This document shows positions 4,028 through 64,000 of a stretch of 64,000 bases of DNA, piece by piece (the first letter of the stretch is position 1; the number at the start of each line of letters is the position of its first letter). Source of the stretch: Cloeon dipterum (taxonomy: Eukaryota > Arthropoda > Insecta > Ephemeroptera > Baetidae); contig NC_088787.1 of NCBI RefSeq assembly GCF_949628265.1, positions 24,170,501 to 24,234,500 of the forward strand, given 5' to 3'. A program made the position numbers and the translations under genes. The notes beneath the pieces were generated by a model. It did not search any database, was not told where the DNA came from, and saw nothing but the letters and a program-made list of their open reading frames with translations.

Positions 4028-4091
<64 letters not shown>
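4028..4091. repeat. AT dinucleotide microsatellite, about 32 units
   Basis: An uninterrupted run of alternating A and T spans 64 bases. It lies in gene-poor DNA. Length in such a repeat is prone to assembly and population variation. Shorter AT runs occur near 11792-11808 and 41461-41474. Confidence 0.97.
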
Positions 4092-21400: not shown

Positions 21401-23417
21401 GGAGATAAGGGTTATTTTATAAGTCAACTAGATATGTGCATCATTTTCCTGTTCAAAACCACTTCGAGTAGCGCATATTGCGGGAATATTGGGATTTTCA
21501 TGTGATAATGAATTGTTTATTTGAATAATTGGCAAAAACATAATTGTGCAAAATATTTAATCAAATAAATAATTATCTGTCACAATCATATCCAGCAAAT
21601 TGCAATCAAAAGAAAGACTTCATTTCTTACTTGATTCCAGAATCAAGCTAAAATTTGCATTCCTTGGGTGTTGAGTAATGCGTCTCCTGTGAAAATAGCA
21701 TAACTCTTAAACTTGATTATTTATGACCAGATTTTATGAACTCAATGCTTTGCAGAGTAAACTTGTGATATTTGACAATGCAACACTGTTGCCCGTGCTG
21801 CAAGAGTCACTTAACTGGGAGACGTTCGAACAGTGCTGCTTCTGGCATCTGATTGAGGCACACAATATCCCATTGGACGACCTGATTGCGATCCTGCCCG
21901 AATTGGACTTCAGCAAGCACCACGAGGCGCTGTCTAGTTTGATGCTGTTTATGAAGCAGGAGCGTCCCTCAGCTGAGCTGCTGAAGAATATCATGTTACG
22001 CACGGCCAAGCCATCGGACCTGTTTGTTGTGTCCATTTTACAGTATTGGGTTCTGGAATACGAGGATAAACTGGCCGATATTGTGGCCAACCTGCTGACT
22101 AAGTTGGTTCCAAACTCACCCACCAAGCGAAAGCGTGGCAGCCAGGCCGCTGTTTCCGCCAAGGGTCCTACTCCACCATCGATTGAGCACGTCTTGGCGC
22201 ACCTTGACCAATTGCGTATCGTCAGCAAGCACAACCCCAAGTTCTTCCTTCTGGATAACATGCAGCGAGCTTTGCAGCTCGTGCTAGGCTCAAACTTAGA
22301 CCCTCTGAAGAAGAAGTATCACGACCTGCTTGCGCTGGCTGAGGAACTGCAGCCGCGTGGTTCCGGCACCGGCGGCCGTGGGACTAGAAAGGCCGCCTCG
22401 ACGGCCAAGAGCCAGAACTCCAGGACCTCTCGTGCTGTTCCTGTTGTTTCTGACTCTGCAGACAACACCAGCGAGGTTTGTAAAATTCAGTTTATTCTCT
22501 ACTTCGCGATTGATTGATGAGGGAAATTCCTAAAGAAATTGTTTTAAGTTATGTGAAGGCTGAATTTTTTCATTGAAATTTTTCTATAAGGGGATATTTG
22601 AAAAAATTAAGCCTAGAATAAAGCAACGGGAGACAAAATACACATTGTAAGGATGAAGCGATGCTTAAAGTTAGCCGAAATATAGGTCTGTAGCTGATCT
22701 ACAAAAAAAAATAATTAGGCTTAACTGGCAACAAATTGGTATGGCAGTACTCAACATTCAGGACTGATTTACTTTAATTTGTCTATGTGCAGAACTGCCA
22801 CTTTAACGCTTCACTTAAAATGTTTTTGTCTTCTTTCCATTCTCACTTCAAATTAACTTATCCCATTCCACATTTTCCTCCCATTTTTATCATATTTGGG
22901 TTTAGTGAATGCCGTATACTATTTAATCCAAGTTCAATATTTTCATTTTTATTGTTGGTTCAACAATCTTTGCGCTAAAATGCTTCATACTAATTAAAAA
23001 TTTTAGCTCATAATAAATTATTTGAACCACATCATTGTTAAAAATTGTCCAATTTTTCCTATGATTTTTTAACCTTTCTTTGCCTACCTGGTATTAAAGG
23101 AAAAGCAAAACCTTTATAATGATATTATTTACTTTATTTATTTCCATTCTCATATAATTTACAACTCGCTAAAATAGAGCATTACCAGTAACTAGTATTA
23201 GCGAGTTTTATGTCTCATAAAATTTTTGAAACTGATTTTTAATGGCATTTAGAAACAAGTAGTGTATATATAATGCCCTTTAGTAAATTATTCCATTTTT
23301 AATTTTGATTTTAAATTTAAATTTGACTTTTCTTCCTAAATGTGTTTTTAGGAAGAGGAGGTCAAGCCTAAGCCAGCCAAGAAGCGCAAAAAGGCGAACG
23401 TTGTGGAGAGCGACTAA
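15455..23417 (+). CDS. INTS3: Integrator complex subunit 3
   Basis: Helical-repeat scaffold of the Integrator complex (snRNA 3' processing, promoter-proximal termination) and of the SOSS single-strand DNA complex in animals. Thirteen exons join in phase: 15455-15529, 15702-15869, 16052-16317, 16464-16744, 17326-17471, 18181-18492, 19710-20070, 20123-20453, 20508-20678, 21052-21157, 21212-21370, 21756-22475, 23352-23417, giving 1,053 residues, close to the roughly 1,040 of vertebrates. Strong family matches are the [15 protein letters not shown] segment, [27 protein letters not shown], and the very conserved [13 protein letters not shown] followed by [16 protein letters not shown]. An acidic linker (SDDEEEVP) lies mid-protein. 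The small last exon, after an 876-base intron, adds a Lys-rich nuclear-localisation-like tail ending ESD. Confidence 0.96.

Positions 23418-23589: not shown

Positions 23590-23631
<42 letters not shown>
23590..23631. repeat. AG dinucleotide microsatellite, 21 units
   Basis: Uninterrupted (AG)n of 42 bases in the INTS3 3'UTR, about 175 bases after the stop codon. It would be transcribed as a purine-rich GA tract. Confidence 0.95.
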
Positions 23632-24452: not shown

Positions 24453-26296
24453 TTAATTAACAGCAACCATTGCCGTATTTCGAGTCACACTTGCCAAGGC
24501 ATTTTGGCTCTGCGGAACCCTGTAGCCGTTTCGTTGTAGCATGACGTTCTGGTAGACTACGCCTGCATTATCAATGGTAAATCAGTTACTTAAATAATAC
24601 GAAGCAAGTGAACAAACCAACGGCGTTTCCAGAATGCTTCTCTAGCACATCGTGGAATATTTTATCCAATTTTGTATCGTCAAAAGCATAATAAACCAGA
24701 TTTTTGCCTGCAAGCGAGGCGGCCAGCCATTGGATCTCCAATTTCAACTCGGGGTCTCCCTGTAAACAATACATTCAATAAACCCAGTTCCAGACGGGGG
24801 AGTTGGATTGTCATGCTGGGCAGCAAAACTTTAAAAAGAAACTATACTCGGAAACAACGATGGGATACAAGTAGTCACGATTTAAGATGGTTAAATATTT
24901 TGCTGGCTATATCTAATAATTATTCCACGTTGATAAGATTTTATACCTCAAATCGTCCCCCACCCCAGTTGCCAGTGACGATGGTGTCCCGAGGACAGTT
25001 TTTGAAGCCAGCATAGGCCTTGAGCAGTTCCTTGTCAATGCTTTTCTTTGTATACTGCTCACTCTTGTTGCTGGAGAAATTCTGCGCGTCGATGGCAATA
25101 ACCGTGTCGCAGCAGTTCTTGGGCGAAGCATCAACATAAGCGAATGTTCCGGCGTAACCTTTGACCCTGGCGTATGGGTGTGCCCCAGAGATAACCAGGG
25201 CTTCGTTGTCGCGCAATTGATCGCTGATGATGCTGCAGGCAAGCAGCTCAGGAGTGCTGATGAACTTGCAGTGCTCTTGGGCAGCTATTCCCTCCAAGAC
25301 TGCAGTACCGACGGATCTTAAAAAAAATCGAATAATCATGTTTTATGTTTGAATCTTGAATTCAAGGGATATTATGGAAAGTGGGCCTAAATTTATTGAA
25401 TAACCAATATAATTAATGTCACTTTTGTTTGATATAGAGGATGGATTATTTTTATGATGCTTGAAAAAGCCTACAATTAAATAACACTACTAATGAAATG
25501 TTTCAGTTTGAAATTTCTTACGGGTTAGCAAAGACGACCTGAGCCCATTCCTGCGGGCTGTCGAACATGGAGTCTTTACAGACCTTCTGCAGGGTTGTCA
25601 TGCGATTAAAGCTTTCCTCCCATTTGGGAGACTCTTCTACGCACACTCTATCAAATGTGACCCTTTCTGCATGGAAGCATTTTTAGTAGGTGCAATTATT
25701 ATCCTATACATTAATGAAAAGTCGTACCTTGAGATGTAACGTTCAGGGACTTTCGCCAGTATTCAAACAGGCATTTCAGCTTTTCAACTTTGATCCTGTC
25801 AGAGGTCGCGTCGCGATTTGAATGGTAAAGCCTTGTATATAGTTAATTAATTAATTGGCGAATTAAGAGTTCTAATCATTTTTGTTACTCCTTGAAATCA
25901 ATCGAGCTGTTGCCAAAAGAGCAAAGAAATCCTTTGGCCAGAATCTGCGAAATGGTCTCCTTTGTCAGGGTCAAGCTGTATGTAGCACCAGCGGTTAGTT
26001 TCCCCTGGATGGCGGTGTAATTTTGGGCCCGCTGCTCAACATGCGACACTAATTGAGCAAGAAACGCCTGCTTTTCCTCATCAAGACCCTGCGGGAACCG
26101 CATTAGAGAAAATATAATTTTATGTAATACAATTTATTAAATTTGTTGAATACCAAGAGAGAATCAAAACTATACTATATACCATTAACTCCTCGTATGC
26201 AGTGTGGAAGTTATTGAAGTTGTAATTTTTCAAATCTGAAGTGCTTTTTTCTCGGATATACGACTCCACGCTCTTTGGAGTTTTATATTTCGACAT
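24453..26296 (-). CDS. PARG-like protein with degenerate catalytic loop
   Basis: Homologue of the poly(ADP-ribose) glycohydrolase catalytic core. Exons in reading order: 26296-26183, 26088-25889, 25831-25728, 25666-25522, 25316-24947, 24759-24618, 24562-24453; 394 residues, only the helical and macrodomain core, with no long N-terminal regulatory region. Family landmarks are SLTLTKETISQILAKGFLC, the VxFAN strand, FISTPELLACSII, the GYAGTFAYVD strand, TVIAIDA, ELLKAYAGF and TGNWGGG.F.GD. In active PARG the signature reads VDFANxxxGGGVLGxGxxQEE. Here Asp is Val184, the second and third Gly are Thr192 and Ala193, and the last, catalytic Glu is His203 (codon 25273-25271); Gln201 and Glu202 remain. 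I infer a binding-only pseudoenzyme or one with altered chemistry. The frame is intact throughout, so it is not an obvious pseudogene. Confidence 0.88.
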
Positions 26297-32581: not shown

Positions 32582-35500
32582 TTACTCGTGGCGCGCGTAC
32601 TTGCTAGCGAGCTGCCGCTGGATCCAGAAGTTGCAGTTGTCGTACGAGCTCTTGATAGCCACGTCCTGGTCCACCAGCATGATGTTGTGCGGTAGGGCGG
32701 AGGAGCGGTCGGTGCCCGAGGCGCCTGGCGGCAGCTCCTGGTGCCACACAAATCGGTAGAACGTGTTCTGCATGGCGGAGAGGTAGCGTTTCTCCTCGGG
32801 GCTGTGCGCCTCATACAGGCCCAGGATGGCGTCCATATCGGTGCCCACGTCAGCCACTCCGCCGAAGTAGCTCGTGTTGCGTGGCTGCGTCACCACATAG
32901 AAGTGCACCGACGAGGGGTATCGGTTGCCCGACTTCAAACCTGACAGACGCAAAAAAATGGTTCAATCAATTAATTTTGAGGGGGGAAAACGAAAGGAGA
33001 AAAGTATGTTTTAAAGAGCAATAATCTAAATACAAATATTTTTAAACTCGAACAAAGAATTTGAAAGCTGACAATCATGAAAAAATTAATTAGTTGTTGC
33101 CAGACTACATCCAAGAAACAATTGAAAAAATAATTACAATAAAATAGAGGCGATATTTTCTTTATTTGTGACCATAAAACGCTGAATATAACGTTAGATA
33201 TAGAGCTAAAATACTTCAAAATGATCACACATCAAGAAATGTTTTAGTTCATCCCTATAGCCCCTGGCCAGGAAACAAAATAATTTTCAACTCAATTATT
33301 GTCTTTTGGCAGCTTTAGGAGTCCCATTTATGTCACGTGATTGTTATTTTACTGTTCTCTGTTTGATACCAGCAGATATTTGAATTAACAGCCGACCAGA
33401 GTGGACAAAGTAAAATTCATATTGCAAAAACTGTCCTTGTTTTGGCTTAAAAAAATCCAATAAAATAAGATAATTTGATATAAGATGATATTTGTTGTTG
33501 TTTGAAATGTGGGGATGTATGGAGCATAGTTACTCATCTGCTGATCCACAGTAAAATTATTAAATTTAAAAATATTACAAAAAATTGTTAAATTATTTCA
33601 ATTTTAAATTTGTCGACAGCTAATTAAGTAGACCATTTTCCAACTAATCTCCAAAGAATTTATCAAATACGGATAAAAGCTCTAAAAATTATTTTCATGG
33701 AAGGGTGCCACATTTTTTAAAAATTTTGCTCACACCTATCCAATTAAAATAAGATCAAGTGGACAATTTCTTTGACGAGACAACTATCAAATTAATACAA
33801 ATGTTAATAGATTTCTTACTTGTTGCTTTGACGGTCGCAAGTTCCTTGGCGGTCTGATAAAGGGGGCAGATGGTCCTGAGGTCGCTGATCATGGCGGCGA
33901 GCTGCACCCAAGACGGGGGCTGGTAGCGCTTCAGCACTTCGTCCAGGATGCCGACGGGCACGTTGTTTGAGCCAAGCACTGAGCCGCGCAGGTAGTTCTC
34001 AAAGTTGACTCTTTGGCTCCAGTCCTTCTTGAATCGCAGCTCATTGCTCGCCTCCACGTGTGCGGTTGTACCTGATAACAGTGAAAATTTTCATTTTTAA
34101 AAGTTCCATAATTGAGAAAAGGCTGCACATCTTTTACCTTTATAGTGCGTTCAAACAATAAATTGAGCAAAAATCAATATTCCTATGAAACCTATTATTT
34201 TTCAGATTTGTATAAATATATTTCAATCAAAACTTTTATAAATAAATTCGCAAAATGAACATAATATTGTTTCCCACTCTAAACAAAACATCAAGAAAAT
34301 CTTGAATTTGAGTGCAATTATATTGCATTGTTTTAAATGATAATATTGAAAGGCTTTTCAAATCAAACTGTAAGTGGAAAATAAAGATGATAACTGACCA
34401 ATGACGACCCGGTAGGGTAGTCCATTCTCCCTCCAGGCGTTCATCAAGTTCTGCCTGACGATGACGCCATCCTGGATGATCCAGTGGTGCTGATCAATGG
34501 GTGGTGGGCCGAGCGGAAGTTCTGACTTCCAAATGTTCTTGACCCAGTCATCAGGCACAGCGCCAAGGATTCCTTCAGGGTCAAGCCGACGGATGCAGGC
34601 AGCCGTGGTGCAGCCAGTTTTCTCAAAGAACTCGCGGCCGGACACCTCAGCGTCCTTCAAGGTCTGGTTGGGCAGCACACCTGAGCCGCTACTCAGCCAC
34701 ACCTGGTTGAACAGTCGCTGCACTGGAGCCTCGCGCCGCTTGCTCAGAGCGGTCAGAGCGATGACCAATGAGGCACCCGCCCTGTGTCCCACAACCGTAA
34801 CAGTCTGGAAAGAGAGAAAACATCAGTTTTAATGAAAGGGTTTTGTTTGAGGGTGGCGAATAGTTACATCAGGGTTCCCGCCAAAGTGCTCAATGTTGAT
34901 TTGTACCCACTCCAGGGCGGCGATCAAGTCAGAGAGGGCATAGTTGCCTGAGTGGTGTGGGTAGGTCGTACTGGAGATCAAGTTGGAAGCCAGGAAACCA
35001 AATGGGCCAAATCGGAACCTGAGAACGAGAAAGCAAATTGAAGTATAGGAAATATTTGAAAAATGCGACCACTCGAGGTTGTTTTCATGTTAAATATAGG
35101 AAATAATTTATTTGTCATTTCAAAACTTTTTTCCACCCAAAATAAATAATTAACAGAAAAATATAATGAATATTATATGCAATCAAATATGTATCTCCAA
35201 TTATTGCATGGTTCAGCTACTGAAACCATTAAAACTTAAAAATTGTGCCAACAAAGAATACAACAGATATTTATCTCATCACTGCAGATATTGTTGATCT
35301 AAAATCCTATTTTAATTTTTTAAAAATGAAAGCTGAGGTTCAATGTAATTTATAATTTATACCAGAAAAATACACTTCAGCAAGACCTTATTAGACAAAA
35401 TATAGATGACAAACCTTGGCTGAACAAAGACGACGTCCCGCTGCCGAGCCATTCCTCTGGCCGGTCGCCATGAGTTTCCTCCGACCAGCGTCTCTGAGGA

Positions 35501-38500
35501 CACGAGGACGACGACGGGTAGTGGCGCGTCATGACTGGCCCTGCGCGTGTACACGTCCAGGGTGAGGCAGTCTTCAGAGCCAAAGCGCGAGCCGTTTCGA
35601 TGCAGCTGCCAGCACTGGTTTGGCGGTGACTCAGACTCGTTCTGCCAAGCCCTGAATGTGTCGTTCCAGCACAGCTCCAGACTTCGCAGCGACTTGGCTG
35701 GTGCGAAACGCAGCTCACCCACTGGAGGCGCCGCATATGGGATGCCCTTGAACGTGTACTCGCCTTCGTCCAGCTTTCTGCATTCCAAAGAAAAAGAAAA
35801 ATCATTTAAACTGTTTCTGCGTTGAAATAAATACACTAAATTGAAAATATAGTTAAAATGCAATGTTAACGTTTTTAAACTTTTGCGTTACGCTAAAAAA
35901 CTCACTAAGCTATTTTTGACGAAGTTCTTTCTTAAAAACAGGCGCATATGAGATTGATTTTCATGAAGAATTATCGAGATGAACATTTGAATCGCTTCGT
36001 TAATAACTTGCTTAACTGACTTTATTGTTTGTTTTTTTGATAATAGTAACGCGAGAAGACAATAGCTCAATAATTATTAGAACTTCGTTAGTGCAACTTA
36101 ACGAAAACTGAATGATTAACCCCGTTTGGACACTTATTAAAATAAATCCAGCTAAGACCTGACTATGATTGAATAGGTTATTCCGTAACTTATTAAAAAC
36201 GAATTGAAATTGAAATTAATTATTATTTATAAATCAGTGTGGCAGCATTGAGCATTGTTAATACGTGCAGAGGAATTTGAATTCAGAACACGATTCCAAA
36301 TTGAGTGCGCCAAGCAAAGAGCCGTATGCTTAGGTTTTAATTGAGGTCTGAATAGAGAGGCAAAGGAGCAAGAACGCCTTGGGCTGGAGCCAATTAGCGA
36401 GAGAATAGAATATGGTGAAAGAAGGCACTTGCCCTTGCACAGGACCACAAGAGGTGATGGTGGTGACGTAGGTGCCGCTGACCAGCATGCCGTTGAAGCG
36501 CGGCCGACGAGGTCCGGTAATGGCCAGGATGATCAGCAACAGCAGCAGTGATAGGAACACGATCAAACCAACTGCAACAAAACCGAACGTTCGAGTAAAA
36601 TCTGGACGGATTGAGGATTCCGGTTTGACTCACTGATGAGGAAGCGGTGCTGCTGAAAGGTGTCCCTCAGGTTGCCTACCAAAGATTCTTCATCGCCTTT
36701 GCCCTCTTCAATAGCTTTTTCATTTTTCTACAAAAGCCATAGATATAGTGAGCGTAATTGGACACGTGTTCCTGATAATTTAAAAAAAATGAATTTATTT
36801 ACGGAGAATCATGAATTCAGATCAATTCGAGGCAATTTAAATTTAGAAAAATAATGAAATAGAGCTGACCTGCTCTTCTTCGACGTCGTTGAGCTCAACC
36901 TTTTCAAGACCATCTTCAACGTCTTCTTCCCCCAGCTTCTGCTTCTCTGGGTCTGTTTCTCCAGCCTCCGTGTCCTTGTCCTGCGAACGTCCGATCACCA
37001 TTGAAAATTTTCCTTTTGACCGAATCTGAGCACTCTCGGCCCTCAACTGACTGACTGACTCAATGTAGCATTTTTATCGATCGGGCGAGCGCGCGCCACC
37101 GACTTCACAACAAAGCATCTGAGCGCGCGATCTCACTCTCGCATGCACGCTGAAGGTTGACGCTTTTGACATTAGTATTTGACTCACCTCTCTGTCAACT
37201 CAAAAAGGGCGTCTTGTATTCAATGGGCTAGTAATTTAGGCTCTTCAAACGGAATGATTTGGTGCAACTAGTCGATGTTAAAGGAAAACAATTTATTCTG
37301 GATAAAACTGTCATATTTCAGCACGGAAGGTCATAAATATTAATTTTCTTGACATTTGAACCTATATCTTAATGGTATGGGACAGATAAATCGAAACATC
37401 ATTGTAGTACCTATGATCGGTATAAAAAATTGAATAATAAATCGAGTAAAAAAGGGCAAAAGATGAAGCATCGCCTGCGAGTTGCCACAATGCTAATTGG
37501 ATTGCTCGGCAGAGTGCATGACTGCACGGTAATCCATCGTTTGGCAAAGTCTGCTGCACACCGGCGTGTAAAATCGATTTTCCACGCCCTCAAACTTGGA
37601 GCGCGAAAATATTCATGCGGGCGCCCCTGTTTACATCAGCAAATTTGAGTGAGTGAGAGGAGAGGCGCTTTTGTTTTGTCACCCCAGTGGCAAAAAATTT
37701 TGAACTCAGCTGTCTCAAGTGCGATTGAATGGACAGAGGGATACGAATGCTTTTTTTTAAAATTCAACCAAATGGCTCAGCATTGTCAAAATGCCGAGGG
37801 CGGCACGAAAATTATTCCTTAAAGGTTTACCTTGCTTCTCTTTGGCCAGACGGCTTCCAGGGGCGCCCTGATAGCCTTGAGCAGCTGGGTAGTCTTGGAA
37901 ATAGGAGCCGGCTTTGGCTCCTGCTCTTCCTTGTTCTCCTCTACTCCTTCAACCCCGTCTCCCTCTTTCTTCTCCTCGTCGGCAGTCTCCACGCCGCCCT
38001 CAACATCGTGGTCACCAGTCTCTTTCAGCTCCACCGGCTCGCAGCCCTTTTGACCAGGAGAGCAGAGAGTTTATGTTAGCAGGAGCGACGATGGCTTTTG
38101 CGCAAGACATTAACTAACCTTATTGGACTTTTTGAATGGCATACTGGGCATCTTGACCTTTGGAATCTTTGAGAGCACCTCTTTGGACCAGGAAATGGCG
38201 GTGGGCTTTTCGCCCTTCTCTTCGCCATCCTCGCCCTCGGGTTCTCCCTCCTCAGTCTTTGTGGGAGACATTGGTGGCACCTCTTCACCCTGGAGGAGCT
38301 TCTTGTCCTCCTCATTTTCACCACCTTCGTCGGTTTTCTTATCCTTTTTTGAAGGGAGCAAATATATAAAGGATAAGCTACTACACTGTCAAAACATTTG
38401 GCTTCAGATCTTAGCTACATTTTTTTTAAAAGAAACAGAAAATTGTTTCATTCTTATTTTAAAGCAAAAACTCTTAACCGAACTAAAAATTCTCTTCTGT

Positions 38501-44900: not shown

Positions 44901-46694
44901 GTTTGTGATCGCGGGCCGGAAGGCGCGTACAGGATAATTTTTATGATTTTTATTGAGCAGGAGCTAGACGGAAGAAGAGCAAGCACAATATGCATTTCAT
45001 TCCTTTTTAGATAAGCAGATACAAAAAATTTAGAAACCATGGAAGCAATTAAAATATATTAAAAATATCAGTTAGAAAGCTAAATAATATTTGTGATATT
45101 TGTTCTTGTCGTAATCAAAAGTAAATATCTATAAAGTCACATTATGATAAATTTATAGCTCCCAAAAATAAATTTGATTCTGATCACGTAGCTCAATAAA
45201 GAAAATGAGTCTTAAAATTTGATGTTTTTCTATCAACTGCAAGAAGCGTGTTTTTGTGTGTCACCAACGTCAAAAATAAAATTTGGAACTTTTGGGTGCC
45301 TTCACTACTACGTTTTGAAACCACGAACCCAACTGAGTGTGGGGCTTTACTTTGAATTTTACCAGTTTCACCTCCTGGGAACACAAAACGCGACGACGGC
45401 TGTCGGTCGCTCTCTCGCTAATGAGTCGCTTTTGAAAAATTCATGCTTCCAAGTCGGCGAACATGCAAAGGAACGTTTACATACCTCCATGACACTGACG
45501 AAACTGCTATACCCACTCGCAGATAAAAATCGAAATCAGGTGCCACATTTTTTTTGTGAATTTTAGAGTAGAAAATAAAATCTTAATGGATTGAAGCAGA
45601 AATAAAAGAAATTAAGAGATTTTAAACATTTTTTAATTTAAATTGGGCTGGCATGACTGAATCGTTTTGGTTGAGGATTAATCTATTTAATTAATCTTTA
45701 GACACAGCATAAGAATAAGAGCATTAATTCAAATTTTGAACAACGCATTTGCAAACAAAATTATCGGAGTCTGTAGATGTATTGATATTGTTAGAAAATT
45801 ATGACTTGAAAGTCATTAATTTATCATAGCAAATAACATTAAAGGGGCAAACAATAACTGTTAACTGAAAGGATGTGCCTGTCAAAAATTTGACAAGACA
45901 AAAAAAATGATCATAAATATAATATAGCTGAGATTTATAGAATATTTGAAATCACAATTCAGAGCTGACGAGCTGACGAGTGGTAAATCAAAGAAACTAC
46001 TGAATACTATCTGCTGATTTTCTACTCCAATTGTGAATAGAATAATCCACTCCACCAGGTGGATGTAAATTCGTTTCGAATTCTGAATGAAAAGGGCCGC
46101 AGGGGCAGTTGACATTACACGAAAAATAATATATTATAGGGTATAAATGGATTTGAGATAAGAATCTCAAACGCAACAGAAGGCACAAAAGAGAACACGG
46201 AAATCGCGTGTATCCAAGCCCTGCAGTTGTTGTAAAATTTGTTTTTCCACGGAAGTTTGAGTTCTGGAGAAAAAAGCTGAATCAATCAAAGAGCAAATCC
46301 GGCACGCTAATGTTGGGTGTGCGTGACATTGGTGACCAAACGCGCAATTGAAGGGTTTCAAAGTGAAAGCTTTGGGAAAGCTGCTTTTCGTTGAGTAACA
46401 GGAAAATAATGGTCTACGTGCGCCAATTAATTGCAAGGAAGCCAAGTAGTGCGCTGCGCTATTGAATAAAACCGCATGACCCATAATTAGTTTAATATTC
46501 AGCGAGAAAATCGCGGATTTATACAATTTTTTGTGGCCTCTGTTCAAGATTTTATACGGCTCTGTACATACGCAATTATATTATGTATGTATTCTGGGAT
46601 TCAAGTAATGCAATCATAAAAGTTAGGATAACAGAATAATAAAAAGAGCACAACAATTCTAATACTTTCGAATATAAATAATGTAATAAAAAAG
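38954..46694. other. Gene-poor block with CpG-rich islands
   Basis: No exon series can be supported. CpG-rich patches stand out at about 42820-43080, 43540-44010, 44440-44660 and 44830-44930, in AT-rich surroundings. They are candidates for promoters and 5'UTR exons of neurotactin (whose first coding exon starts at a splice acceptor) or for unknown non-coding transcripts. I recognise no protein in the open frames. Confidence 0.5.
43735..44013 (-). other. Candidate 5'UTR exon of neurotactin
   Basis: On the minus strand a good acceptor (AATATTTTGCAG) is followed by 279 CpG-rich bases and a strong donor (CAAG then GTACGA). It lies 4.8 kb upstream of the neurotactin start codon, on the same strand. 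It contains a 23-codon upstream ORF starting at about 43987. Assignment to neurotactin is inference; it could belong to an unknown non-coding transcript. Confidence 0.25.
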
Positions 46695-46766
46695 TTCCCA
46701 TACCGGGAGTCGAACCCGGGCCGCCTGGGTGAAAGCCAGGAATCCTAACCGCTAGACCATATGGGA
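46695..46766 (-). tRNA. trnE-UUC: tRNA-Glu (anticodon UUC)
   Basis: A 72-base cloverleaf on the minus strand: acceptor stem TCCCATA/TATGGGA, D-loop with GGTCTAGCGGTTAGGAT, anticodon stem CCTGG/CCAGG around the loop CTTTCAC (anticodon TTC), T-stem CCGGG/CCCGG around TTCGACT, discriminator A. No intron. A and B boxes are intact, and a run of seven Ts follows directly on the coding strand, as expected for RNA polymerase III termination. Confidence 0.97.
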
Positions 46767-55429: not shown

Positions 55430-58400
55430 ATGGTCAGAGCGGCTTCAAAAAGAAAAGCGTTGGCCGAAACGCGAGTAAAGGAAGCGCCGAAAATTGAGTC
55501 TTTAAAATTGTCAGAGAAGGTTGGTGTTATTTTCTTATTATAAAATGAAAATGATCTAAGAATGCATTTAATTTTGCTATCAGGAACTTGAAAATGAAGA
55601 GGATCTTCTGGGAAACATAGCTTCAAGTGATGATGATAGTGAGGACAGTAATGATTACGAATCTTCAGAAGAGGAACAGCTTGGAGATGAGGAGGAGGAA
55701 GAAGAAGAGCAGTCCAGCGCAAACGAGGAGACCGGAGATTCAGCTAATTCAGGAGGCAGTGACTATGAATCATCTGATGCAGGTCCCTCCAGAGAATTAA
55801 TTAGTGAAGCGAAGGAAGAAACGACAGAAAATGATAAAGACGAATATGAGAGTGGAGACACCTCTGACGAAGAAGTATGTTTGCATGACTAAAATCCGCT
55901 CCGTTTCTTAGTTTTCCCTTCTTTAGGATTTGAGGAACACAGTGGGCAAAATACCAATGCATTGGTACGATGATTACCCAATGCTAGGCTACGACTGGGA
56001 TGGAAAACCAATTTTGAAGCCAGAGAGAAGAGATGAGTTGGATAACTTCCTGAAGAGAATGGAAGATCCTAACTTTTGGTATGTCTCAACACCAAAATTT
56101 TTAAATCGGTTTCTCATGAGCCCATTTAGGAGGACCATTCGAGATCCTAGCACAGGTCAAGATGTAATTCTCAATGAGAAGGACCTGGCTCTGATCAAGC
56201 GCTTGCAAGAGAGGAAAATTCCAAATCCTGATCATGAGGAGTATAAGGTTAGAACGAACAAAAATTAAAATTCTGTGATTTTATATTAGTGACAACGAAA
56301 AGCTCACGATGATTTTGTCATTCTGCAGCCCTGGGTTGACTGGTTCTCAAGCAAGGTGATGACCACAGCACTTAGACCAATTCCAGAGAGCAAAAAGTCG
56401 TTCCTTCCCTCAAGATCAGAGCGTGAAAAAGTTTCCAAAATGGTGCACGCGTTGAAGATGGGATGGCGAGTGCCGAGGGCAGAGTTGGAGGCTCAAAGAG
56501 CAAAGGAAAAGGCAGAAGGTCCAAAATTCTTTGACCTTTGGAGCGCGGATGGTGACGATGAGATTAAGAGAAGAGGCATCATTGACCATATTCCCGCGCC
56601 AAAGAGAACCCTGCCAGGCCACGCTGAATCCTACAATCCACCTGCTGAATACCTCTTTAACGAAAGAGAGGTTTGATTGTTAGCTTTTTTAAGAATGCAA
56701 CTTAAATGTAATATTAATTATTTACAGCTGGAGTTGTGGCACAAGCAGTCTGAGACACCTTGGAAAAGGAAGTGGCATTTTGTTCCGCAGAAGTTCCCGT
56801 CACTCAGAGCAGTGCCTGCATATCCTAGGTTTGTCAAGGAACGTTTCCTCAGGTGCCTTGATTTGTACATGGCGCCCAGAACCAGAAAGAACAAGGTGAG
56901 CCTATAAATAAGACCTGAATGGCAAAATTTATGATTAAAAATGTGCTTGCAGCTCACCATTCAAGCAGAGGACTTACTTCCTGAGCTACCTGACCCTAAG
57001 GACCTGCAGCCTTTCCCCACTGCTCAGAGTCTCATTTACACAGGACACTCAGACATTGTTCGCACCATCTGTCCAGATCCAAGTGGACAGTTCTTAGTGT
57101 CTGGCTCAGATGACTGCAGCATTAGAGGTAATTGAGAAAAATTGCTACCAATGCTGTTAAATACATCTCTAATGAAGATGGTTAGCCAATCAAATGAGCC
57201 CCAGACCAATTATCTAGTCTTTTTATTTATCTAAGTAACAGACTTCCAAATTTGTTCATATTGTATTTATAAAAAGATTAAAAATAGCACTGTCCAGAAA
57301 TACTTAACAGATGCTGTGTAGTAAACAAAGAAAAATTACTAATTTGATTGCAGTTTGGGAGGTGTCCACTGGTCGTTGCCTTAAGATCATTGCTGCAGGA
57401 GCTGAAGTCTCTTCTGTTGCCTGGAACCCAAGCTCTCACCTGAGTCTTCTTGCGGTAGCTGCCGGAAAGAGGTTACTTATCTGCAGCCCTCAGGTTGGCA
57501 GCACTGAAAAACTGACGGCCACTGATGAACTCCTGGCTGTTCCTCCAGAGGTTGACTCCAACACTGTCGGTAAGTGCCTGATTAGTAAAGAATTTGAATT
57601 ATTGAATTTATTTGAACATAAGCCAAATTTATTATCAATAGCCTAAAATAAATGTTAACAATCTTAAAAAATATTTTTGTAGATAAAGTTATGCGCTTCC
57701 AAAAAGGCTGAGAATAAACATGCATTAATTACGTGTCCACAGTACCAGAGAGGGTGCAGACTGCTGTCAAATGGGAGCAGGCAGAAGGCAAGGATTGGGA
57801 TGATGGCCATCGAGTTGTGGTCACACACTTCAAGGATCTTAAGCAGGCAGTGTGGCATGGCAGGGGAGACTACCTAGCTGTCGTGGTTTCAGAGGGCCTC
57901 AACCGGTCTGTCATTGTGCACCAGGTGTCCAAGAGGCGGTCCCAAATCCCCTTCAACAAGGCTAGAGGACTGGTGCAAGCTGTCCAGTTTCATCCTGTCA
58001 GACCTATGCTGTTTGTTGCTGTAAGTTTTGATAAATAACAATGTCTTCCTTCTCATCGAACATATCGCTGTCTTTTTCAGACCCAGCGGTCCATCAGGAT
58101 TTACGACTTGGTGAAGCAACAGCTGGTGAAGAAACTGATGACTGGCTCAGCTTGGATTTCCTCCATGGCCGTACATCCTGGTAAGTTGGTTTTACACACT
58201 TTCAATTTCGGGAAATCATTAGAAACAGGGAAATACTTTGCTCGAGTTACCGAAAAGTTAGCCTGTTGACCAGATGAGCATCTAATGGGAAATTAAAATT
58301 ATTTTAATCACATAATTAAATTTATAAATAATATAGATGGTATTTTCAGCATCATCTCACACATATATATGCATGTAGTTACATTGGAATTTTCCTATCC

Positions 58401-61033: not shown

Positions 61034-64000
61034 ATGTTTAACAACAAAACCACCTTTGGGCAAAACCCGTCCTCCTCTACGTTTGGTAAGTTATTTTAAA
61101 ATCTGATCCATCTAAAGCATATTTGTACTTACAATTTCTTGTTCAGGTTTTGGCGGCGCCCCAACCAGCTCCACCCCGTTTGGCCAGAGCGCGTTCAGCA
61201 AGCCAGCGACTGCAAACCCAGGGTTCCAATCGACAGGGTTTGGCTCAACAGGCAGCACCCTGTTCGGTGGCACAACTGCTCAAGCCACACCTGGTCTTTT
61301 TGGAGGCACTCCAGCGCCTGCATTTGGACAGCAGCCTCAGCAGCAACAGCAGTCAGCCTTCTCGGGATTCAACACTGCTGGCTCAAGCTCTCTGTTTGGC
61401 AGTAACTCGGCCTCCACTTTCGCCCAGCCGAAACCTGCTTTTGGAGCGTTTGGTGCCTCTACCCAGTCTTCTGGGCTCTTTGGCAGCCAGCCCGCCGTAT
61501 CTACGGCTACCTCTAGCGCATCCCTCTTTAACAATCAACCAACTGGTGGTCTCTTTGGCAGCTCAGGTAGTTATAATTTAATATTGATTAGTGTCGCATG
61601 AGACTCAAAATAATTCACCATAAATATCGCAGATAGATTAGTAAAATTTAATTTCGTATTCATTTCTCATAAGAAGGTCTAATATTGGAAACTATTTATC
61701 AGAAATTAATGTGCCTGATCTTTTTTTATCACAATTGTGCTGGAGCTCAAGAGGTTAAGTTAGACTGTGCTAAACAGAAAAATTTGCTTGGTTGGTATAG
61801 GAGGATTCGGCGCGTCTACAAACAACAACAATGTGATCGGTACGCCAATCAAGTTCAACCCCCTGGCGGGCACTGACACAATGGTGAAGAACAATCAGAC
61901 AACCACAATAAGCACTCGCCATCAGTGCATCACATGCATGAAAGAATATGAGAACAAGTCGCTAGAAGAGCTGCGCATGGAAGATTTGCAGGCAGGCAGA
62001 AAGGGGCCCCAGCAAGGGAGTGGCCTCTTTGCTGGCTCTACGCAGCAGCAGCCGCAGCAGCAGACGTCGTTGTTTGGTGGAGCTACCCTGGGCCAGCCAT
62101 CCACCTCATTCGGTGATAAATCTCTCTTTGGAGCCACGCCCACCTCCAGTACTGGCCTCAGTATGCTTTTATTTTATTTTTATACTTTAAGCCTTACCTC
62201 AACTCAATGTCACCTCTAAGCATTTATTATTCTTTTTGTGCTGATTTTTAAACATTTCTGTGTTGAGCAGCCAATACCTTTGGAGGCACAACAGCGTTTG
62301 GCTCTACAGCTCAGGCCAATACTGGTCTCTTTGGCAAACCCACGACTTTTGGGGCGCCTGCCTCAACAGCTTCAACTAATTTTGCTTTTGGTGGAACCAA
62401 TAACAACAACTCAGCAAATCCATTTGGCGGTGCTACTCAGAAGACATTTGGCAATAGTAAGTCTTTTAAACTATCAATTCTCAAATCACATTTACTCATT
62501 AGTTAAAATCCCAATCTAGAGCAAAAATTGTGATGTACTTTAAAAAAATTACAAACTTAAGGCAAATTTTAAAGAAGTGGCATCGCTTTAAATTTTAACT
62601 GGTTTAACCGAATGCTTAGTTACAATTTTTTCATAGGTTGCATTACATACATGAGGGAGCAATTTTATTATTATTATTATTGTGACCAGCATCACAAATA
62701 TTCTGTTATTTTTAAATCTTTGTTCTACCATTTTGCAATATAATCTGAAATTTTAATTCGTCAGCTGGAAGCACTCTTTTTGGCGCTCAGCAGCCAACAT
62801 CTCTTTTTGGCGCCACTCCCACAACCAACACGGGCTTTGGCTTTGGCGCTCAGCAGCCACAGCAGCAACAACAACAACAGGGTATTGGGCTGTTTGGTCA
62901 AAAGCAAACAACCACGCCGTTTGGTATGGCTGCCCCTCAACCAGTGTCTCAACCTGGTTTTGGATTTGGACAGAACACAGCAACCAATACACAAAGTAAG
63001 TAGCTTGAGCATTTTTTGTTGAGGATATTTAGATAAGTTTTTTGGGTTATATTTAAAATTTGTATTAGGATATATCTGGTTTCATAATATTTAAATGTTA
63101 TTAGTAAGTTATTTTATATTCACCGACCAATTAACTCAAAATTTATTGAATCTCAAACCTTTCATCTGTAGCAGCAGGTTTAGTTTCAGCAAAGCACTGA
63201 TTGGATTATGTAATGATAAATATGATGTTCAACAGATTTGTTTGGTAACAAACCTGCAATGGGCACTGGCCTGGGCACTACTTTTGGCGGCGCCACCAGC
63301 TCGCCGTTCGGAGCGAAACCTTTAGGCACCACTCCAGCACCCGCATTTGGATCGGCCTTTGGCGGTCAGCAGCAGACTAATGCCTTGGGCGGAGGTACTT
63401 CGCTCTTTGGTCAGAGCAAACCGGCAGGCACGACCCCCAACTTTGGCTTCGGCCAGCCGCAGCAGACGCTGGCGTTTGGTGGAGCAGGGCTTTCTGCCAA
63501 CAATAATCCTTTCGGTGCCAAGCCGGCCGCGCCCACTAGCCTCTTTGGCGGTGGTGTCATGTCAGCAGGCCTGTTCAGCAACCCGTCAGCCGCACCTGGC
63601 ACGGGTCTATTTGGTGCCTCCAACTTTGGAACTGGCTCAACTGGTCTAACACTTGGCCAAGGTGGCTCATTAGGACTCAACACCGCCAAGCCCTTTGGTG
63701 GTTTTGGTGCCCCTCTTGGTGGTCAAGCCAATGCTGCAGCCTCTCAGAGTCAAGCGGCCCACCAGCACATCTTGGCCCTAACCGCCTACCCATATGGAGA
63801 CCAGCCACTCTTTAGGAATCTGGTGAGCTTCATTTTAATAATTTTGTTGTATGTGGAAAGTAGAATATATTATGCTCAAGTTTTCATGAACTTTGATGAT
63901 TTGAAGATCAGTTAAAGTGGTTCAAATGGATTGATTGCTGTTATTTTTTTTTTTAATTTCAGTAGAGATAACAAATTGATAGGTCTAATTCGCACAGCCT
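61034..64000 (+). CDS. NUP98: Nucleoporin NUP98 (NUP98-96), 5' part
   Basis: FG-repeat nucleoporin of the nuclear pore; in animals the gene normally encodes a NUP98-NUP96 precursor. Exons seen: 61034-61085, 61147-61566, 61801-62160, 62271-62456, 62765-62995, 63236-63822; the rest lies beyond the window. GLFG, FG and FGG repeats fill all exons. The RAE1-binding GLEBS motif is clear in exon 3 (GTPIKFNPLAGTDTMVKN, then STRHQCITCMKEYENKSLEE). The last visible exon ends YPYGDQPLFRNL, the conserved junction before the autoproteolytic domain. After it, the acceptors near 63962 lead to stops in this phase, so the next exon probably begins at about 63998. About 680 residues are seen. Confidence 0.95.

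Follow-up and report, generated by a model that had tools for sequence, protein, structure and literature searches.

A gene on the minus strand of the 64-kb window (the whole stretch of Cloeon dipterum DNA that was analysed) encodes a PARG-like protein that is, on balance, rather likely to be a live homologue of the canonical PARG type which has lost poly(ADP-ribose) hydrolysis, and is hence a pseudoenzyme, and which has kept most of its ADP-ribose cleft. An earlier note, made from the letters of the DNA, had proposed an ADP-ribose-binding pseudoenzyme. This is the best supported reading, because two of the three departures from invariant sites affect catalytic acids, most ligand contacts including E755 are kept, and codons are used as in a live gene; the binding half of the proposal is what we infer from the retained residues, which suggest that the protein is probably an ADP-ribose reader.

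Gene structure and family membership

Rebuilt from the raw sequence, the gene extends from 26296 to 24453 including the stop codon, and its seven exons join to 1182 nt, or 394 codons, with no internal stop (Table 1). All six introns are of the GT-AG type, are 55-205 bases long and agree in phase. The independent rebuild thus reproduced the coordinates, the exon number and the intact frame and exon phases that had been read earlier.

Table 1. Exons of the PARG-like gene and the intron within its catalytic loop, in window coordinates
Feature	Position	Strand	Remarks
Exon 1	26183..26296	-	ATG at 26296-26294; codons 1-38; donor GTATAT
Exon 2	25889..26088	-	Helical accessory domain (PARG_cat_N)
Exon 3	25728..25831	-	Accessory domain
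Exon 4	25522..25666	-	Macrodomain begins; 3' end encodes VVFAN plus two bases of codon 188; Val184 (GTC) for Asp737
Intron 4	25317..25521	-	Interrupts the catalytic loop within codon 188; GTAAGA...TTTAAG; holds no alternative canonical loop
Exon 5	24947..25316	-	Altered catalytic loop SVGTAVLEGIAAQEH; GTA for GGG; His203 (CAC) for Glu756; Tyr clasp GY242; TGNWGGGRF diphosphate loop
Exon 6	24618..24759	-	Macrodomain ends; Phe337 is the adenine-stacking Phe902 of human PARG
Exon 7 and stop	24453..24562	-	Coding 24562-24456; TAA 24455-24453

Both Pfam domains of the PARG family were found in the protein, namely the macrodomain PARG_cat_C (PF05028) at residues 153-343 (167.4 bits against a cut-off of 26.3, E 4.2e-49) and the helical accessory domain (PF20811) at residues 42-146 (45.3 bits against a cut-off of 25.6, E 1.2e-11); no other Pfam family matched the 394 residues at E up to 1, and an NCBIfam search returned nothing above cut-off. 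With E of 0.001 or lower, 15 sequences of solved structures matched; every one of them is a PARG, and rat PARG 3uek is at the top (E 4e-41; identity 35-37%, depending on the alignment). The fly (8adj) and Tetrahymena (4epp, 4epq, 4l2h) chains were matched as well. The diphosphate loop pattern TGNWGxGxF is present as TGNWGGGRF at residues 302-310, and its TGNWG core, at 302-306, had already been reported as kept. A pattern scan of the 394 residues gave no match to the MacroD-type motifs Nx(6)GG[V/L/I] and G[V/I/A][Y/F]G, or to the motifs [V/I/L]xGxGxGx[F/W/Y] and WDxx[S/A]xPGN[D/E] of the arginine-specific DUF4804 macrodomains, as these are quoted in PMC10951314; DUF4804 was not matched in Pfam either. 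By descent and domains, as judged from these similarities, the protein is a member of the PARG family.

The signature GGG-x(6-8)-QEE, described as the defining one of the PARG enzyme (PMC4030884), was not found by pattern search, the protein having GTAVLEGIAAQEH instead, and the three catalytic acids D737, E755 and E756 are represented by Val, Glu and His, respectively. Since the protein lacks these marks of a PARG enzyme, it should be named PARG-like and not PARG.

Catalytic loop and ligand contacts

Aligned to rat PARG 3uek, and in human numbering, D737 corresponds to V184, G744, G745 and G746 to G191, T192 and A193, E755 to E202 and E756 to H203. This alignment confirms the four altered key sites noted earlier (Asp to Val184, GGG to Gly-Thr-Ala and the second Glu of QEE to His203), together with their human numbering, and the loop, which lies at the position of the canonical loop of rat PARG, reads VVFANPSVGTAVLEGIAAQEHCKF. 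Further changes are R741P, F742S, G751I, V753A, Y792V, H828N and A874R, and residues are deleted relative to rat PARG at human 646-657, 803-806, 812-815 and 856-860. The fold-defining strands appear to be retained, as far as sequence similarity can indicate; an AlphaFold2 model of the exon-5 product, made with 8 bacterial relatives, reached a mean pLDDT of 52, which is not good enough to search for similar folds.

In human PARG, Glu756 is described as the likely catalytic acid/base acting on the 1''-OH, Glu755 as holding the 2''-OH and Asn740 the 3''-OH, and the buried Asp737 as supporting Glu755 and possibly relaying protons to Glu756; Phe902 stacks on the adenine, Asn869 holds ribose', and the diphosphate is held by Gln754, Gly871, Gly873, Ala874 and Phe875 (PMC3519477). 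Tyr795 is described as the clasp residue. Counted on the sequence, 8 of the 14 ADP-ribose contacts named for human PARG in PMC3519477 are identical in the window protein, and so is the clasp: E755 (E202), N740 (N187), Q754 (Q201), Y795 (Y242), N869 (N304), G871, G873, F875 (F310) and F902 (F337) are kept. The changed contacts are E756 (His203), Y792 (Val239), A874 (Arg309) and F900 (Tyr), as well as I726 and E727. For the last two the alignments disagree, one placing Phe and Asp there and the other Met and Phe, so that this contact is uncertain. Three of the six (I726, F900 and A874) are reported to be main-chain contacts (PMC3519477; PMC10238386). Arg309 in the diphosphate loop, Val239 in place of Tyr792 and the deletions could nevertheless weaken binding.

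The altered glycines bear on the kind of ligand to be expected. In mouse PARG, the double change GG737/738AA is reported to lower activity, and the glycines concerned possibly recognise the diphosphate of the n-1 unit (PMC3897571); they correspond to human 744 and 745 (an offset of seven), and the second is Thr here. The importance of a conserved signature glycine is also reported for Arabidopsis PARG (PMC4030884). Because the changes lie where mouse PARG may read the n-1 unit, the end unit of a chain or mono-ADP-ribose would be a likelier ligand than the interior of a chain.

Comparison with rat and bacterial PARGs

Columns were counted over 13 rows, consisting of rat PARG and 12 bacterial canonical-type PARGs, a small set that is prokaryotic apart from rat. 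Rat PARG matched 34 ORFs with E of 1e-5 or lower, and 13 of these were retained, the remainder being repeats of the same genes and weak matches with E of 3.7e-11 or worse; L018, a fragment of 228 residues with 90% identity to L017, was excluded from the column counts. A contig scan of prokaryote genomes yielded 8 loci, and PF05028 was found in all 8 source genomes, whereas across two phyla it occurred in 17 of 377 and 3 of 387 genomes, mostly as weak partial matches. No relatives were found in viral contigs by two protein scans and two DNA patterns, and there was no match in phages with rat PARG as the query or in plasmids with the window protein as the query.

Twenty-nine columns are invariant in the 13 rows. 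The window protein matches 26 of them and departs at D737 (Val), E756 (His) and R843 (Lys); the hypergeometric chance that three losses would include at least two of the three catalytic acids is 0.022. By column count, loss in the loop does not significantly exceed loss elsewhere (three column thresholds gave Fisher p values of 0.14, 0.11 and 0.31; p 0.11 is for columns identical in at least 12 of the 13 rows, where 6 of 11 loop columns are kept against 30 of 37 others). In a leave-one-out count over columns on which 11 or more of the 12 other rows agree, all loop positions were kept by 11 of the 13 rows, the exceptions being L021 (11 of 12) and L017 (7 of 12); on a comparable column set the window protein keeps 6 of 11.

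The bacterial exceptions are instructive with respect to the glycines. L017 and its near copy L018 carry HIH for GGG with DFAN and QEE kept, both being the second PF05028 copy of their genome (G002 and G005), which encodes a GGG copy as well; three further bacterial rows (L001, L003 and L007) have GGA in place of GGG. The glycine triplet therefore varies naturally, and, within this set, it is the loss of D737 and E756 that distinguishes the window protein.

Published catalytic mutants and the proposed function

Laboratory mutants of the same acids have been described, and they do not all behave alike. In bovine PARG, D738N and E756N (human D737N and E755N) are reported to abolish activity with little effect on binding of an ADP-HPD analogue, and the bacterial equivalent of E755A to lose much of its affinity for ADP-ribose (PMC3519477); E755 is the sole catalytic acid kept in the window protein. 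The human chain 5a7r, which PMC10238386 refers to as the ADP-ribose dimer complex, carries Asn at 756, and both 5a7r and 4na6 read QEN. For mouse PARG, E748N and E749N are reported to shift the signature loop, no iso-ADP-ribose to have been seen in the active site of any of the four mutants E748N, E748Q, E749N and E749Q, and the two Gln mutants to retain residual activity (PMC3897571). Human E756N is reported to keep marginal activity at branch points (PMC8319183). Taken together, loss of an acid kills or cripples hydrolysis, and ligand binding survives in some, but not all, of the published mutants.

With both D737 and E756 lost, ordinary PAR hydrolysis should be absent or very weak. Without Glu756 the leaving ribose would lack a proton-donating acid, and without Asp737 there would be no relay to residue 756, so that a bound ADP-ribose unit would stay uncut. 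Since some mutants bind but do not catalyse, E755 is kept and a dimer complex of a 756 mutant is available in 5a7r, the likeliest job of the protein is to hold ADP-ribose uncut; it would then serve as a reader, shield or competitor at ADP-ribosylated targets, alongside an active PARG from another locus. The behaviour of the mouse mutants means that His203 may likewise disturb the cleft, or allow a residue of activity, and the marginal activity of human E756N means that a "dead" enzyme may be a very weak one.

Alternative explanations

The altered loop would be trivial if the gene model or the assembly were at fault and the true mRNA used another exon with DFAN...GGG...QEE, a suspicion that the position of intron 4, which cuts the loop within codon 188, might raise. 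However, the key changes are spread over two exons, on either side of that intron, and neither DFAN nor GGG-x(6-8)-QE turned up in any of the six reading frames of the 64 kb, so that no exon in the window could restore the loop, an outcome that the earlier note had named as fatal to its claim. As to assembly errors, another of its provisos, V184, T192, A193 and H203 require a minimum of 1, 2, 1 and 2 base changes, and with at least six changes needed, one or two sequencing errors are insufficient to explain the loop. An artefact is the least probable of the alternatives. Hardly more probable is a decaying pseudogene that is open by chance. The loss of catalytic residues would suit it, as would the low identity to rat PARG (35%, below the 39% of the closest bacterial PARGs of the set), but the gene retains 394 open codons and all 12 splice dinucleotides, and its GC3 of 0.569 resembles that of its neighbours (0.584 over 1585 codons in 12 open stretches, range 0.36 to 0.75), against a GC of 0.32 in noncoding DNA (2679 bases of introns and nearby intergenic DNA). 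In a simulation of random substitution, stops arose well before such divergence, 0.2% of 1000 copies being stop-free with 24% of residues replaced and none of 1000 with 42%. The open frame, the GC3 and the simulation together indicate that selection held the frame for most of the divergence, although a recent relaxation is compatible with them; in these respects the gene is unlike a decaying pseudogene.

The remaining alternatives accept a live gene and differ over what it does. A re-targeted hydrolase, in which His203 and Glu202 form a different acid pair, or substrate-assisted chemistry operates as in other macrodomain classes, and which removes mono-ADP-ribose or another ADP-ribose derivative, is unlikely, although it deserves the most attention of these alternatives; it corresponds to the altered activity with His that the earlier note had offered as a second option. 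Glu202 (E755), Asn187 (N740) and the diphosphate loop are retained, and the residual activity of mouse E749Q (PMC3897571) and the marginal activity of human E756N (PMC8319183) lend it some support. Fly and Tetrahymena PARGs are reported to remove mono-Ser-ADP-ribose (PMC10238386), so that shifts of specificity are known within the family, and the window protein has the same Leu at human 748. On the other hand, the possible relay partner D737 is gone as well, which makes a simple acid swap less likely; the quoted MacroD and DUF4804 motifs are absent, and the two PARG domains are the only Pfam content. A structural or protein-binding role with ADP-ribose binding lost altogether is decidedly unlikely: altered contact positions (Y792V, A874R, E756H and GGG to GTA) and the displaced loop reported for the mouse Asn mutants (PMC3897571) point that way, but eight of the 14 named contacts, the clasp Tyr and TGNWGxGxF would not be expected to persist in an unused cleft. 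Finally, the protein might be the only PARG of the species, with PAR handled by another enzyme such as ARH3, which is an improbable arrangement, albeit one compatible with a pseudoenzyme. Searches by tblastn with the gene model and with rat PARG found no second PARG in the 64-kb window (other matches had E of 0.94 or higher), and ARH3 is present in most animals, although Nematoda, Lepidoptera and most Diptera are reported to lack it (PMC10238386). By contrast, species lacking ARH3 are reported to retain PARG (PMC10238386), a 64-kb window is uninformative on the remaining genome, and PARG duplications are described as quite common, occurring in all major eukaryotic supergroups (PMC4245714), with examples in plants and C. 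elegans (PMC10238386). Because duplications are described as common across eukaryotes, an origin of the PARG-like gene by duplication, as the earlier note had envisaged for the case of an active PARG elsewhere in the genome, is plausible by analogy.

Relation to known PARGs and macrodomains

The PARG-family pseudoenzyme that we favor can be set against several known systems. With canonical PARG (rat 3uek, human 4a0d) it shares the two domains in the same order, TGNWGxGxF, the Tyr clasp, the adenine-stacking Phe, E755, N740 and Q754, and it differs in D737V, G745T, G746A and E756H, in its four deletions and in the lack of a long N-terminal region. It resembles the laboratory mutants (bovine D738N and E756N, 5a7r and 4na6), in which the same acids are substituted and some of which are reported to bind without catalysis (PMC3519477); those mutants are engineered, whereas here two acids and two glycines have changed together in nature, the acids to Val and His. 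The signature likewise varies in eukaryotic PARGs of the bacterial type, for which GGA/H-x7-QEE is quoted (PMC4245714), but that example keeps QEE, while the window protein lacks the second Glu and is of the canonical type with a helical domain. Bacterial L017 and L018 also show a natural loss of the glycine triplet, but with their acids intact. Recurrent loss of hydrolase activity with the fold kept is reported for PARP14 and viral macrodomains (PMC10221186); these are macrodomains of macroPARPs and viruses, whereas the window protein is a stand-alone PARG-like protein. Duplication of PARG and loss of activity in macrodomains have thus both been published before, and the present gene is a further variant of such cases.

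A bolder, and rather doubtful, proposal is that the gene encodes a natural substrate-trap PARG, that is, a reader selected across an animal lineage that would grip poly(ADP-ribose) ends or mono-ADP-ribose in the old cleft and protect or localise its targets against active PARG, the eraser fold having been turned into a reader by the loss of two acids and two glycines. No report of a naturally catalytically dead animal PARG was found in the open-access literature at the level of titles and the beginnings of abstracts, which does not prove that none exists. If the proposal is true, it would matter because the PARG fold is treated as an eraser, and a selected member with most of the contacts but without the acids would give a stand-alone reader or competitor with the PARG fold, as well as a PAR trap ready for use. 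The case would also be a warning against naming PARG activity from domain matches alone, since both Pfam domains score well above cut-off here. If the gene is merely another diverged duplicate, it has little importance beyond annotation.

Other features of the window

A DNA polymerase iota-like gene (PF00817, PF21999 in two stretches) lies on the plus strand from approximately 27796 to at least 30034. It and the PARG-like gene are divergent, with approximately 1.5 kb between their start codons, and this head-to-head placing of a DNA-damage-related pair is possibly due to chance. Another gene with an altered active site, of the carboxylesterase family (PF00135 in two stretches), occupies approximately 32583-35790 on the minus strand. 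The canonical nucleophile elbow of carboxylesterases is of the GESAG type; here the elbow, at 34789-34772, reads GHRAGA, with Arg for the catalytic Ser, and we take the gene to resemble insect neurotactin, a non-catalytic adhesion protein. This resemblance hints at an arthropod source, and the neighbouring genes in general suggest an animal, perhaps an arthropod. The C-terminal stretch of Integrator subunit 3 (PF24566) was found at 21717-22517 on the plus strand, and open stretches upstream of 21717 are presumably the remainder of the same gene. Also on the plus strand are BOP1 (PF08145), at 55927-56268, and, at 61116-63915, a gene for an FG-repeat protein, presumably Nup98, in which the stretch 63226-63912 has no Pfam match. 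A tRNA-Glu (TTC) gene lies at 46694-46766 on the minus strand, and two perfect dinucleotide microsatellites, (AT)32 and (AG)21, occupy 4028-4091 and 23590-23631, respectively.
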